Positions 3,806 to 7,931 of a stretch of 64,000 bases of DNA are shown here, one piece after another. This stretch comes from an uncultured Desulfobulbaceae bacterium (GTDB taxonomy: Bacteria; Desulfobacterota; Desulfobulbia; Desulfobulbales; Desulfocapsaceae). The notes beneath the pieces were generated by a model, which worked only from the letters and a program-made list of their open reading frames with translations, ran no database searches and was not told where the DNA came from. Position 1 is the first letter of the stretch; each line of letters starts with the position of its first letter. The DNA is taken from positions 1 to 64,000 of the forward strand of contig CALENA010000150.1 of the NCBI GenBank assembly GCA_937910875.1. The letters are read 5' to 3'. The position numbers were made by a program, and so were the translations under genes.

Positions 3806-3834
3806 TTGACTTGGCAATCTTTACCACCTATTAT
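3806..3834 (+). promoter_or_regulatory. Sigma70-type promoter of the redox-stress regulator
   Basis: TTGACT at 3806-3811 and TATTAT at 3829-3834 are separated by 17 bp, close to the sigma70 consensus. The promoter lies 31 bp before the regulator start and immediately precedes a Fur-type palindrome. Confidence 0.7.
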
Positions 3835-3850
3835 TGGTAATAATTATCAA
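3834..3850. promoter_or_regulatory. Fur/PerR-type operator palindrome
   Basis: The 17-bp sequence TTGGTAATAATTATCAA is a palindrome with one mismatched pair around a central A. It resembles the GATAAT-N-ATTATC core used by Fur-family repressors. It begins at the last base of the -10 box and would cover the transcription start, which fits autorepression by the adjacent PerR-like protein. Its recognition by that protein is inferred. Confidence 0.65.
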
Positions 3851-3864
3851 TTAAGGAGATGACC

Positions 3865-4494
3865 ATGCGGATGACAAATCAGCGGCTGATGATTCTTGAT
3901 GTTTTGCAGACCAGCAAGATCCATTTGACTGCCGATGAGGTTTATGAGCGGGTGCGGCGAGTCATGCCGCGGATCAGCCTGGGTACGGTCTACCGGAACC
4001 TTGATTTTCTGGCCGAGGCCGGTTTGATCTCCAAGCTTGACGTCAGCGGTCGCCAGAAGTGTTTTGAGGCCGAGGTCGGTGAGCATGAACACGTGGTCTG
4101 TGTTCGTTGTCGTCGGGTGGACAATCTGAATCTGGAGCAAAAAAAAAGAGATTACTCTTCTCATGAGATAATAGATGGGTATACTATAACAGGGTGCAGA
4201 GTTGAATTCTCAGGTCTCTGTCCCAGGTGTCAGCAATTAGAAAAGCAAGGAGAAACAGTTATGGGATGCGGATGTGGATGTAAGTCATCAGGATTAAACG
4301 AAGAGCAGAAAAAGGTTCTTGGCGCTATGGCCAGCTGTGCTGCCCCCTGCGGCAGCAAGGATATTGCCGCAGCCACGGGGCTGGAGAGCAAGACGGTCAG
4401 TGCCCAGATCTCCGCGCTCAAAAAAAACGGTTATGTGGACAGTCCGGTTCGCTGCAAGTATCAGATCACAGAGGTCGGTCGCAAGGCCCTTTGA
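3865..4494 (+). CDS. PerR/Fur-family regulator fused in frame to a C-terminal winged-helix-like domain
   Basis: A 209-residue protein in two parts. Residues 1-130 are a Fur-family repressor: the winged helix (TADEVYERV...ISLGTVYRNLDFLAEAG) precedes the dimer/metal domain with EHEHVVC and structural zinc pairs CVRC and CPRC. A typical Fur or PerR would end here. Instead the frame runs on through an internal ATG at 4261 into a Cys-rich stretch (MGCGCGCKSSG) and a helix-turn-helix-like domain (KDIAAATGLESKTVSAQISALKK). The start at 3865 has AAGGAG six bases upstream; ATG 3859 is too close to it. Position ahead of rubrerythrin suggests peroxide or iron sensing. Confidence 0.8.
   Translation: MRMTNQRLMILDVLQTSKIHLTADEVYERVRRVMPRISLGTVYRNLDFLAEAGLISKLDVSGRQKCFEAEVGEHEHVVCVRCRRVDNLNLEQKKRDYSSHEIIDGYTITGCRVEFSGLCPRCQQLEKQGETVMGCGCGCKSSGLNEEQKKVLGAMASCAAPCGSKDIAAATGLESKTVSAQISALKKNGYVDSPVRCKYQITEVGRKAL
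4261..4494 (+). CDS. Possible separate 77-aa Cys-rich HTH protein from an internal start
   Basis: The second half of the regulator frame has its own start signal: AAGGAG at 4247-4252 lies eight bases before ATG 4261. Translation from here gives a small winged-helix-like protein with an N-terminal CGCGC cluster plus Cys residues in ASCAAPCGS, suggesting metal or redox sensing. No stop codon separates it from the Fur part, so full-length and short forms might both be made. Production of the short form is an inference from the ribosome site. Confidence 0.5.
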   Translation: MGCGCGCKSSGLNEEQKKVLGAMASCAAPCGSKDIAAATGLESKTVSAQISALKKNGYVDSPVRCKYQITEVGRKAL

Positions 4495-4699: not shown

Positions 4700-5275
4700 A
4701 TGGTGTCAATTAAGGGGACTCAAACCGAAAAGAATCTTCTCATTGCCTTTGCTGGTGAGTCACAGGCGCGGAATCGCTATGTGTATTTTGCCAAACAGGC
4801 CATCAAGGACGGGTATGTGCAGATCGCAGCCATTTTTGAGCGGACTGCCGCTCAGGAGCAGGTTCATGCCAAGGCCCTGTTCAAATTTCTCGAGGGTGGC
4901 GATGTCCTGATTACCGCTGCCTATCCGGCAGGGACGATCGGCACGACCTTGGAAAATCTCCAGGCCGCAGCGGCCGGTGAACGGCATGAGCATGAATTCA
5001 TGTATCCCGAGTTTGCCGAGATGGCTCAGGTGGAAGGCTTTCCGTCTATAGCTGCGACCATGCGTGCCATTGCCGTGGCCGAAAAGCAGCATGATCGGAC
5101 CTACAGCGCCTTTATCGAGAATATCAGGAAGGAGAGGATCTTCAAGACTGAAAGCGTGGCGAGCTGGTACTGCTCCAAGTGCGGGTATCGGCATGAAGGC
5201 CATGCGGCGCCGGAAAAATGTCCGGCCTGTGCCCATTCATATAATTATTATGAGTTGCTGGCGGAAAACTGGTAA
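4700..5275 (+). CDS. rbr: Rubrerythrin (NADH peroxidase-type)
   Basis: A 191-residue rubrerythrin. The N-terminal four-helix diiron domain has the ligand patterns GESQARNRY, AAQEQVHAK, ERHEHEFMYPEF and AVAEKQHD. The C-terminal rubredoxin domain has CSKCGY and CPAC around an FeS4 site. It reduces hydrogen peroxide in the cytoplasm using electrons from rubredoxin. AAGGGAG precedes the start. It follows the PerR-like regulator by about 200 bp, the common perR-rbr arrangement of sulfate reducers. Confidence 0.95.
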   Translation: MVSIKGTQTEKNLLIAFAGESQARNRYVYFAKQAIKDGYVQIAAIFERTAAQEQVHAKALFKFLEGGDVLITAAYPAGTIGTTLENLQAAAAGERHEHEFMYPEFAEMAQVEGFPSIAATMRAIAVAEKQHDRTYSAFIENIRKERIFKTESVASWYCSKCGYRHEGHAAPEKCPACAHSYNYYELLAENW

Positions 5276-5515: not shown

Positions 5516-5890
5516 ATGGCAAAGATGCTTGGTGTCTATAAATGTGAGATCTGTGGAAATGTGGTGGAAGTGGTCCATGCCGGTGGCGGCGATCTCAGCT
5601 GTTGCGGGGCGCCCATGGTCGAACTTGTTGAGAATACCGTGGATGCGGCCAAGGAAAAACATGTGCCGGTAATCACTCCGGTTGATGGCGGCTATAAGGT
5701 CGTTCTCGGCACTGTGGCCCATCCCATGGATGCGAAGCACTATATCGAGTGGATTGAACTGATTGCCGGGAATACCTGTTATCGTGAATTCTTGAAGCCC
5801 GGCGACGCTCCGCAGGCCGTCTTTGCCATTGATGCCGAAGATGTGACGGCCCGGGCGCACTGTAATCTGCATGGTCTGTGGAAGGCCTGA
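5516..5890 (+). CDS. dfx: Desulfoferrodoxin (superoxide reductase, two-iron-centre class)
   Basis: A 124-residue cytoplasmic superoxide reductase. The N-terminal desulforedoxin domain holds four Cys in [10 protein letters not shown] and LSCCGAPM (centre I). The catalytic domain has the centre II ligands: His in EKHVPVI, two His in [15 protein letters not shown], and Cys plus His in the C-terminal HCNLHGLWK. The Glu of the EKHVP loop is present. It reduces superoxide to peroxide, which rubrerythrin then removes. AGGAGG precedes the start. Confidence 0.95.
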
Positions 5891-6050: not shown

Positions 6051-6209
6051 ATGAAAAAATATCGTTGTGATATCTGTGGCTATGTCTATGATCCTGAGGT
6101 CGGTGATCCTGCGGCTGGTGTCGAGCCAGGGACCGACTTTGACAGCCTGCCCGATGATTGGGAGTGCCCGATCTGCGGGGCGGGCAAGGACGATTTCAGC
6201 GAAGTCTGA
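6051..6209 (+). CDS. Rubredoxin
   Basis: A 52-residue protein with the two FeS4 motifs CDICGYVYD and [11 protein letters not shown] and the conserved DDWECP. Small electron carrier, here placed between desulfoferrodoxin and the flavodiiron protein, its usual electron donor context in sulfate reducers. AGAG (6041-6044) before the start provides a modest ribosome site. Confidence 0.93.
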
Positions 6210-6313: not shown

Positions 6314-7510
6314 TTGAATCCGATTAAATTGACTGACAAAATTTACTGGGTGGGGGCTGTTGACTGGGATGTCCGTGATTTTCATGGCTATTCCACAAAT
6401 CGAGGAACCACATATAACGCCTATCTGATCATGGATGAGAAGATCACCCTGATTGATACGGTCAAGAGTTCCATGAAGGCGGATCTGATCAGCCGGATCA
6501 GTGAGATCGTTGATCCCAAGAAGATCGATTATATTGTGGTCAATCATGTGGAGATGGATCATTCCGGTTCTCTGCCGGATATGATCGACCTGATCCAGCC
6601 TGAAAAAATCATCTGCTCAAAGATGGGCGAGAAGGCCCTGCGTCAGCATTTTCATCGGGATGACTGGCCCTATCAGATCGCGGTTCCAGGTGAGGACATC
6701 AGCCTGGGCAGCAAGACCCTCTCCTTTCTTGAGACCAGGATGCTGCACTGGCCCGATTCCATGTTCACCTATGTGGTTGAGGACAAGATCCTCTTTTCCA
6801 GTGATGCCTTTGGCATGCACCTGGCCACCAGCGAGCGCTTTGATGACGAGATCAGTCAGGCCGTGCTCATGGACGAAATGACCAAGTATTACGCCAATAT
6901 CCTGACATTGTACTCGCCTCTGGTCAGGAAATTGATTGCCAAGGTTCAGGAGATCGGCCTGGAAATCAAGATGATAGCCCCTGATCACGGGGTGGTGTGG
7001 CGCTCGAATCCGATGATGGCCATCGAGGCCTATGACCGCTGGAGTCGTAATGAGGGAAAGGGGAATGCCCTGATCATCTACGACACCATGTGGCATTCCA
7101 CCGAAAAGATGGCCAAAGAGGTGGCTGCCGGACTCCAGGATGAGGGCGTTTCGGTCAAGCTCCTGAATCTGCGGTATTGCCATCGCAGTGATGTGATGAG
7201 CGATGTCCTGGATGCCAGTGCTATTGTGCTCGGCTGTTCGACCCTGAACAATGGTCTTCTGCCGAGAATGGCCGGTTTTCTCATGTATATGCGCGGTCTG
7301 CGGCCCACCAACAAGATTGGCGCTGCCTTTGGTTCCTTTGGCTGGTCAGGTGAGGCGGTCAAACTGTTGAACGGGGCCATGGAGGAAATGAAGTTCGAGG
7401 TGGTGGATGAGGGGCTCAGGGTCAAGTATGTCCCTGAAAAGAGCGATCTCGGGGCCTGTGTCGAACTGGGCCGCAAGGTGGGCCAGGCCCTGAAGGCAAA
7501 CAGGGGCTGA
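6314..7510 (+). CDS. Flavodiiron protein, rubredoxin:oxygen oxidoreductase (FprA/Roo)
   Basis: A 398-residue type A flavodiiron protein. The N-terminal metallo-beta-lactamase domain carries the diiron motif HVEMDHSG and downstream ligands (SSDAFGMHLA, APDHGVVWR); the C-terminal flavodoxin domain begins LIIYDTMWHSTEKMA and contains GCSTLNNGLLP for FMN. It reduces O2 (or NO) to water with rubredoxin electrons in the cytoplasm. The start is a TTG at 6314, supported by AGGAGG and by alignment with family N termini (IYWVGAVDW). Confidence 0.95.
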   Translation: MNPIKLTDKIYWVGAVDWDVRDFHGYSTNRGTTYNAYLIMDEKITLIDTVKSSMKADLISRISEIVDPKKIDYIVVNHVEMDHSGSLPDMIDLIQPEKIICSKMGEKALRQHFHRDDWPYQIAVPGEDISLGSKTLSFLETRMLHWPDSMFTYVVEDKILFSSDAFGMHLATSERFDDEISQAVLMDEMTKYYANILTLYSPLVRKLIAKVQEIGLEIKMIAPDHGVVWRSNPMMAIEAYDRWSRNEGKGNALIIYDTMWHSTEKMAKEVAAGLQDEGVSVKLLNLRYCHRSDVMSDVLDASAIVLGCSTLNNGLLPRMAGFLMYMRGLRPTNKIGAAFGSFGWSGEAVKLLNGAMEEMKFEVVDEGLRVKYVPEKSDLGACVELGRKVGQALKANRG

Positions 7511-7607: not shown

Positions 7608-7931
7608 ATGAAGATTCATATCGATAAAAATGTTGTTGAGTTTCTGCCGGAAACAGAGCAGGAAACGGCCTCGCTTGAGACCCTGTGGCGGGTGGTGGTT
7701 GATTGTGCCCATGAAAACAAGCGGTTGACGGCCATTGGTGAATATATCCCCATGAAGGAGAATCTGGCCCGGTTTGTTATTGAAGGTGTGGCCGGAGCGA
7801 CCACCTACAGCGCTGATCAGGCCGTGGAGGAGTGCACGGTGATCTGCAGCACCTGTAACAAGTACATGCAACTCAAAGGCGGCGATGCGATTCCCCTCTG
7901 TTGTGGACGGGTCATGGAGACTGCCGATTGA
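7608..7931 (+). CDS. Small Cys-rich protein of unknown function in the oxygen-defence island
   Basis: A 107-residue protein I do not recognise as a named family. The first 70 residues look globular; the C-terminal part has CTVICSTCNKYM and then LCCGRVM, a four-or-five Cys arrangement reminiscent of desulforedoxin or zinc-ribbon metal sites. GAGG precedes the ATG. Co-direction with the flavodiiron gene (about 100 bp gap) suggests a redox or metal-binding role, but that is context only. Confidence 0.7.
   Translation: MKIHIDKNVVEFLPETEQETASLETLWRVVVDCAHENKRLTAIGEYIPMKENLARFVIEGVAGATTYSADQAVEECTVICSTCNKYMQLKGGDAIPLCCGRVMETAD

Follow-up and report, generated by a model that had tools for sequence, protein, structure and literature searches.

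Does a gene that joins a PerR-like repressor in frame to a second DNA-binding domain yield one protein or two? The question arises in the window, the whole stretch of 64,000 nucleotides that was analysed, from an uncultured Desulfobulbaceae bacterium. A sequence-only reading of this DNA had suggested that one gene may give two regulators. That suggestion gains support from an internal ribosome site that is kept among relatives and from selection at its synonymous site, and from these we infer both products. Comparative sequence evidence indicates that in many sulfur-cycling bacteria the fused gene very probably makes two regulators, the long fusion and a short free protein. One transcript giving two regulators is the best overall explanation and a likely one. 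The gene comprises the following features.

3859..4494, + strand: PerR-wHTH fusion gene, encoding 211 aa (start at ATG 3859) or 209 aa (start at ATG 3865)
3853..3858, + strand: AAGGAG, ribosome site of the full-length protein
3865..4242, + strand: PerR/Fur domain with both CXXC pairs inside it (profile, structure and alignment evidence)
4243..4287, + strand: low-confidence, probably flexible linker that contains the internal start (pLDDT below 50 at residues 129-141)
4247..4252, + strand: AAGGAG, internal ribosome site, 8 nt before ATG 4261
4261..4494, + strand: putative free product, 77 aa, a Cys-rich winged helix (comparative evidence, fold model)

The first claims about the coding region stand: the reading frame continues without a stop after the second CXXC (CPRC) into the second domain, and the ATG of the Cys-rich domain does follow an AAGGAG at the proposed distance. 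Pfam profiles place FUR (PF01475, 3e-27) at residues 3-117 of the window protein and the ArsR-type HTH_5 (PF01022, 1.4e-7, above its cut-off) at residues 152-195. For the full-length protein, ATG 3859 directly abuts its AAGGAG, while ATG 3865 is spaced 6 nt from it; because of this spacing, ATG 3865 appears better placed as the main start in the window, with ATG 3859 as a possible alternative. The sister species of the same genus (G001) starts at the 3865 position. For the 17 relatives in alignment A1, script-chosen starts fall at the 3859 position in 12, at the 3865 position in 3 and further upstream in 2.

Upstream of the gene lie three further elements.

3806..3834, + strand: sigma70-type promoter TTGACT-17 nt-TATTAT, assigned by consensus match
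3833..3851, + strand: Fur/PerR-like palindrome ATTGGTAATAATTATCAAT, 19 bp, over the expected transcription start
3812..3826, + strand: second, weaker match to TGNTAATNATTANCA (2 mismatches) over the promoter spacer, which may be chance

Both earlier observations on this region, a good sigma70 promoter and a Fur-like palindrome over its start region, are borne out: the promoter matches the consensus at 10/12 positions, and the palindrome core TGGTAATAATTATCA at 3835-3849 fits TGNTAATNATTANCA with 0 mismatches. Matches to TGNTAATNATTANCA with at most 2 mismatches number 4 in the 64-kb window versus 0.59 expected. The sister species G001 keeps 17 of the 19 letters of the window palindrome. Conservation across the wider set is not uniform, with at least 14/19 matches at 40 of 68 loci in family f1 and 24 of 56 in family f12; the mean score over all loci is 13.7, versus 11.3 for shuffled sequence.

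The PerR half has its best profile match in 2fe3 and its best Foldseek match in 3f8n. With Bacillus subtilis PerR (PDB 2FE3/3F8N) it has in common both CXXC pairs, whose four structural-zinc cysteines are each present in 68/68 aligned rows, and the equivalents of the regulatory ligands, which we take to be numbered H37, D85, H91 and H93. At these positions the 68 rows carry H in 68, D in 66 or E in 2 (the window protein has E), H in 68 and H in 68, respectively. The operator-like palindrome over the window promoter is a further likeness. The window family differs in its added C-terminal winged helix, in its scores below the cut-offs of curated PerR equivalogs (94 vs 200 bits for NF047406, and 91.7 vs 180 bits) and in the equivalent of D104, which is mostly N (N in 60/68 rows, D in 8/68, gapless alignment). 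Because of this substitution, peroxide sensing by the PerR half is not certain. The adjoining position is D or E in 67/68 rows, and a possible alternative ligand may lie there.

Structural modelling of the fused protein from a 68-row alignment (mean pLDDT 84.9, pTM 0.52) gives a Fur fold, a low-confidence linker at residues 129-141 that holds Met133 (counted from ATG 3865), and a complete winged helix. Modelled alone, the winged-helix domain (wHTH) is also a complete fold, with a pLDDT of 90.7. Its Foldseek hits reach a TM (query) of 0.86 to BpsR (6PCO) and 0.83 to MosR (4FX0), with a best E of 1.6e-3 and thus no Foldseek match at 0.001 or better. The modelled fold resembles MarR and ArsR proteins, but the wHTH is only 68-77 aa long and lacks their dimerisation helices, its 68 residues holding the six winged-helix elements only; DNA binding by the lone domain is uncertain because these helices are absent. 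No single Pfam family covers the wHTH across the 36 members scanned. An assignment to the CRISPR protein Csa3 (cas_HTH, 1e-7, 31.6 bits vs a cut-off of 60.2) was rejected as generic winged-helix similarity. The wing cysteine is present in 67 of 68 rows, the second loop cysteine in 63 and the first loop cysteine in 26, and these residues would suit a redox or metal role.

Whether orthologues are split or fused was a question already raised with the two-product idea, and both states exist. The 128 loci of the order with the junction read comprise 81 in-frame fusions, 43 pairs of adjacent separate genes and 4 that show no wHTH. Searches of 58 and 97 genomes supplied 51 of these loci; the other 77 came from a search across the order, in which 126 of 257 genomes matched at 1e-40. 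Family f12 has 56 fused loci out of 58 and 2 without the wHTH, while family f1 has 25 fused, 43 split and 2 without it. The four loci without a wHTH are G118 (where the contig ends), G149, G080 and G192; genome-wide, the domain has no match in G149 and G080 and one weak match elsewhere in G192. Outside the 128 are a split f12 locus found later (G129), three f1 genomes with a Fur orthologue and no wHTH in the stretch (G009, G011, G017), and 14 loci with a wHTH and no Fur match nearby, two of which (L065 and L080) start close to the end of a contig.

In 21 of the 43 split pairs the two genes overlap, the second starting one base ahead of the stop of the first (ATGA; TTGA in G022). On the protein tree, which uses 122 of 124 rows (G175 and G026 are left out here and in the count of the Shine-Dalgarno glycine codon), the fused or split state requires eight changes, seven of them forced by well-supported branches. 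Within genus g5, the split copy L013 has a run of seven A near the junction and the fused L005 a run of eight; slippage in this run could thus turn one state into the other. Of 155 named loci, the best 80 comprise 38 fused, 30 adjacent, 10 solo and 2 cut copies. Isolates with the fused form include Desulfobulbus rhabdoformis DSM 8777, Desulfogranum japonicum and Desulfogranum marinum, with a linker GGAG and ATG in 3/3; Desulfoprunum benzoelyticum, Desulfofustis glycolicus and Desulforhopalus singaporensis are split. Candidatus Desulfatifera sulfidica (JACNLK010000094.1) has a fused gene with the internal site present.

The internal start is kept to an extent that points to selection. A strong Shine-Dalgarno sequence (anti-Shine-Dalgarno duplex of -7 kcal/mol or better) precedes an in-frame linker ATG or GTG in 62 of the 81 fused genes, and 38 of the 43 split genes pass the same cut when TTG is also allowed. 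Among the 71 fused genes with a linker ATG or GTG, these 62 compare with 31.9 expected when the seven upstream codons are recoded synonymously, a test that counts genomes rather than independent events and from which the script left out G157 (80 of 81 used). A tree-aware comparison of glycine columns is the stronger test. The glycine codon within the Shine-Dalgarno sequence is GGA in 64/66 rows and GGG in 2/66, and its third base changes twice on the tree, versus 20-38 times at eight further glycine columns in these genes, which use all four codons. This difference is strong evidence that the internal ribosome site and second start are under selection in the fused genes. Elsewhere in the 81 genes, a comparable Shine-Dalgarno sequence precedes only 5/144 in-frame ATGs, 6/282 in-frame GTGs and 8/482 ATGs in other frames, versus 62/71 linker starts.

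The sequence-only reading had named orthologues that never carry the internal site as evidence against itself; the site is instead found in two families, in fused and split genes. Below the -7 cut-off are 19 of the 81 fused genes: G135 (-6.9), three of genus g51 (-6.2), G096 (-5.4), G150, G125 and 12 of genera g55 and g56. In a third family, f27, outside the 81, L272 is fused and has AAAGGAGG and an ATG, and the fused L274 has neither GGAG nor ATG between the linker cysteine and the wHTH.

The 12 genes of the sister genera g55 (L134-L137) and g56 (L130, L110, L121, L138, L126, L128, L111, L131) have no recognisable internal start: a linker ATG or GTG with a Shine-Dalgarno sequence is absent in 12/12. 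An additional wHTH copy that would compensate for the missing start was considered and rejected, as each of the 12 genomes has a single match at 1e-6, the fused one. Because that start is missing there, the free wHTH seems dispensable in these two genera, which suggests that the chimera alone can suffice. These genera, which manage without an internal site or another copy, also lend some weight to the view that only the fused protein is made anywhere and that the internal ribosome site is left over from a split ancestor. Fitting the same view, G125 and G150 keep the ATG although their Shine-Dalgarno sequence is gone, and the split relatives have the same site. A leftover should, however, decay like the other glycine columns, and the near absence of third-base changes at the Shine-Dalgarno glycine makes this explanation unlikely.

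Another proposal, and quite an unlikely one, derives the free wHTH from a separate short transcript that would begin at a promoter inside perR.

4158..4185, + strand: possible internal promoter TTCTCA-16-TATACT, of a kind that does not exceed background in the set of 81 fused genes

Its letters are identical in G001 and read TTCACA-16-TATATT in G005. Over the 81 fused genes, however, the best internal score averages 7.7, close to the 7.5 of shuffled sequences, and a general internal promoter was rejected on these scores. Such a transcript could not dispense with the internal ribosome site and would thus add to the one-transcript reading rather than replace it.

That the motif makes ribosomes pause, and so aids folding of the PerR domain ahead of the wHTH, instead of acting as a start, is very unlikely. 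Five of the eight g56 genes do retain GGAG with no ATG or GTG after it at the usual place, as a pause would allow. Against this, GGAG stands at a fixed distance from the start, exactly 8 nt in 55 of the 62 fused and 35 of the 42 split genes that have GGAG, and of the ATGs lying 4-11 nt downstream of a GGAG in the linkers of fused genes, 59/59 are in the common frame. The same geometry occurs in the split genes, where the motif must serve as a start, and the mRNA around the internal start is open (mean -2.8 vs -7.25 kcal/mol elsewhere, 71 genes).

That faulty assembly or sequencing produced the fusion, through a missing stop that the sequence-only reading had wished to see ruled out, is scarcely credible and was rejected for the clade: the window does have a run of nine A at 4139-4147, and the split G033 has seven A near the junction where its fused relative G005 has eight, among other differences, but the second CXXC and the wHTH are both in frame in the window, 81 loci are fused, nine of these sit in genomes of one or two contigs, and named isolates and the sister species are fused as well.

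The one-transcript reading, which these comparisons favour, can be set out as a sequence of events. perR and the next gene, which encodes a small Cys-rich winged-helix regulator, would have come to form one frame with no stop codon separating them, and the second gene would have kept its own ribosome site and start in use after the fusion. A single transcript would arise from the sigma70 promoter, overlapped by the PerR-type operator and presumably subject to autorepression. Ribosomes starting at ATG 3865 (or 3859) would make the PerR-wHTH chimera of 209-211 aa, and those entering at the AAGGAG before ATG 4261 would make the free wHTH of 77 aa. The PerR half may sense peroxide through its metal site and repress the promoter. 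The wHTH may act at the linked rubrerythrin, AhpC, desulfoferrodoxin and flavodiiron genes, alone or carried by the PerR dimer. A PerR dimer of the chimera would bring two winged helices to DNA, and the free winged helix might bind by itself, form a pair with a different protein, or act as a competitor. A more tentative idea, which we consider possible and somewhat doubtful, is that the stop codon is an evolutionary dial beside a fixed start: it would set the ratio of tethered to free wHTH, as opposite or competing regulators at one oxidative-stress operon, with one clade, perhaps cable bacteria, fused-only.

Gene context connects the wHTH with the peroxide response. In the window, the fused gene is followed in order by four genes.

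4700..5275, + strand: rubrerythrin gene (PF02915, 2.7e-30)
5516..5890, + strand: desulfoferrodoxin (superoxide reductase) gene (PF01880, 2.1e-18)
6051..6209, + strand: rubredoxin gene (PF00301, 1.4e-24)
6314..7510, + strand: flavodiiron gene of the rubredoxin:oxygen oxidoreductase type (PF19583 and PF00258)

Among the best 80 of 155 named loci, 36 of 38 fused copies have a desulfoferrodoxin gene no more than 3.5 kb away, vs 7 of 30 adjacent ones, counts that come from related genomes and include contigs that end early. In a phylum-wide draw, the wHTH is found at 1e-6 in 67 of 395 genomes. The 50 phylum loci read, two of them from one genome, include 24 with a separate perR upstream and rubrerythrin downstream, 9 that are fused and 12 of a shorter wHTH branch. 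Solo wHTH genes precede an AhpC-type peroxiredoxin gene in several loci, read by eye from machine-called ORFs that are mostly spurious, with two of the AhpC readings confirmed by Pfam. Three of the ten solo loci among the best 80 named ones have this arrangement as well. At L214 the wHTH lies between an ABC gene and ahpC, with no perR match. From these solo and separate loci it follows that the wHTH exists as a gene in its own right, as yet unnamed, in peroxide-response neighbourhoods, and its position there suggests that it regulates the neighbouring genes.

Part of this picture is already known, namely internal in-frame initiation and PerR operons with rbr and roo. Rodionov 2004 (PMC545781) predicted perR-rbr(-roo) operons in delta-proteobacteria and gave a Geobacter candidate operator, ATTGCAATAAAgTACCAAc, which overlaps a candidate -10 element and resembles the window palindrome by eye. 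The linkage of perR to rubrerythrin and roo is common to both; in contrast to the arrangement described here, that account of the operons mentions neither a fusion nor a winged-helix gene lying between perR and rbr, and the word "winged" has 0 occurrences in the main text. According to PMC11899642, Cas11b is a second protein made by internal in-frame initiation, so that, as proposed here, an internal start frees part of a protein as its own product. The present case differs from the Cas11b described there in that it concerns a pair of regulators, with a stop codon repeatedly gained and lost beside a stable internal start. Searches of open-licence papers found no description of the PerR-wHTH fusion or of its winged helix.

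Such a fused gene is easily taken as one protein. The synonymous-site comparison indicates that in dozens of species a fused transcription factor very probably still releases the second domain separately, as a free protein, and it brings out an unnamed winged-helix regulator beside the peroxide-response genes of anaerobes. The natural series of split genes, fused genes with the start and fused genes without it makes the value of fusing two regulators testable.

The wHTH family also has a relative in an unexpected place. PscE (PDB 7UEB, chain E) gives a profile match over 53 of 59 residues to alignment A2, the wHTH of window 4288-4491, at an E of 9e-10. PscE is described as a small helix-turn-helix subunit of the green sulfur bacterial reaction-centre supercomplex, with 59 residues modelled, and the terms winged, DNA-binding and transcription have 0 occurrences in the main text of that report (PMC9529944). 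As reported there, this sequence relative of the wHTH family differs in being found in a membrane complex. Either a regulator fold may have been recruited to the photosystem, or the identity assigned to the density may deserve a second look.

The shorter wHTH branch, whose members end in SPKRCYY or alike (L275, L276, L280-L287, L289, L290), comes from other families of the phylum and looks nearer to PscE by eye; at these 12 of the 50 phylum loci, no perR, rbr or other sought neighbour lies beside it. In the window, a Cys-containing ORF of 107 aa with no Pfam match follows the flavodiiron gene at 7608-7931. It recurs in the same cluster in L164, L187, L214, L232 and L241; in L208 and L077 it lies a short way downstream of a solo wHTH gene. 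At the window edge (1-168), a 33-base repeat, GTCGCCCCCCGCACGGGGGGCGTGGATTGAAAC, is present in three copies and is probably the end of a CRISPR array.
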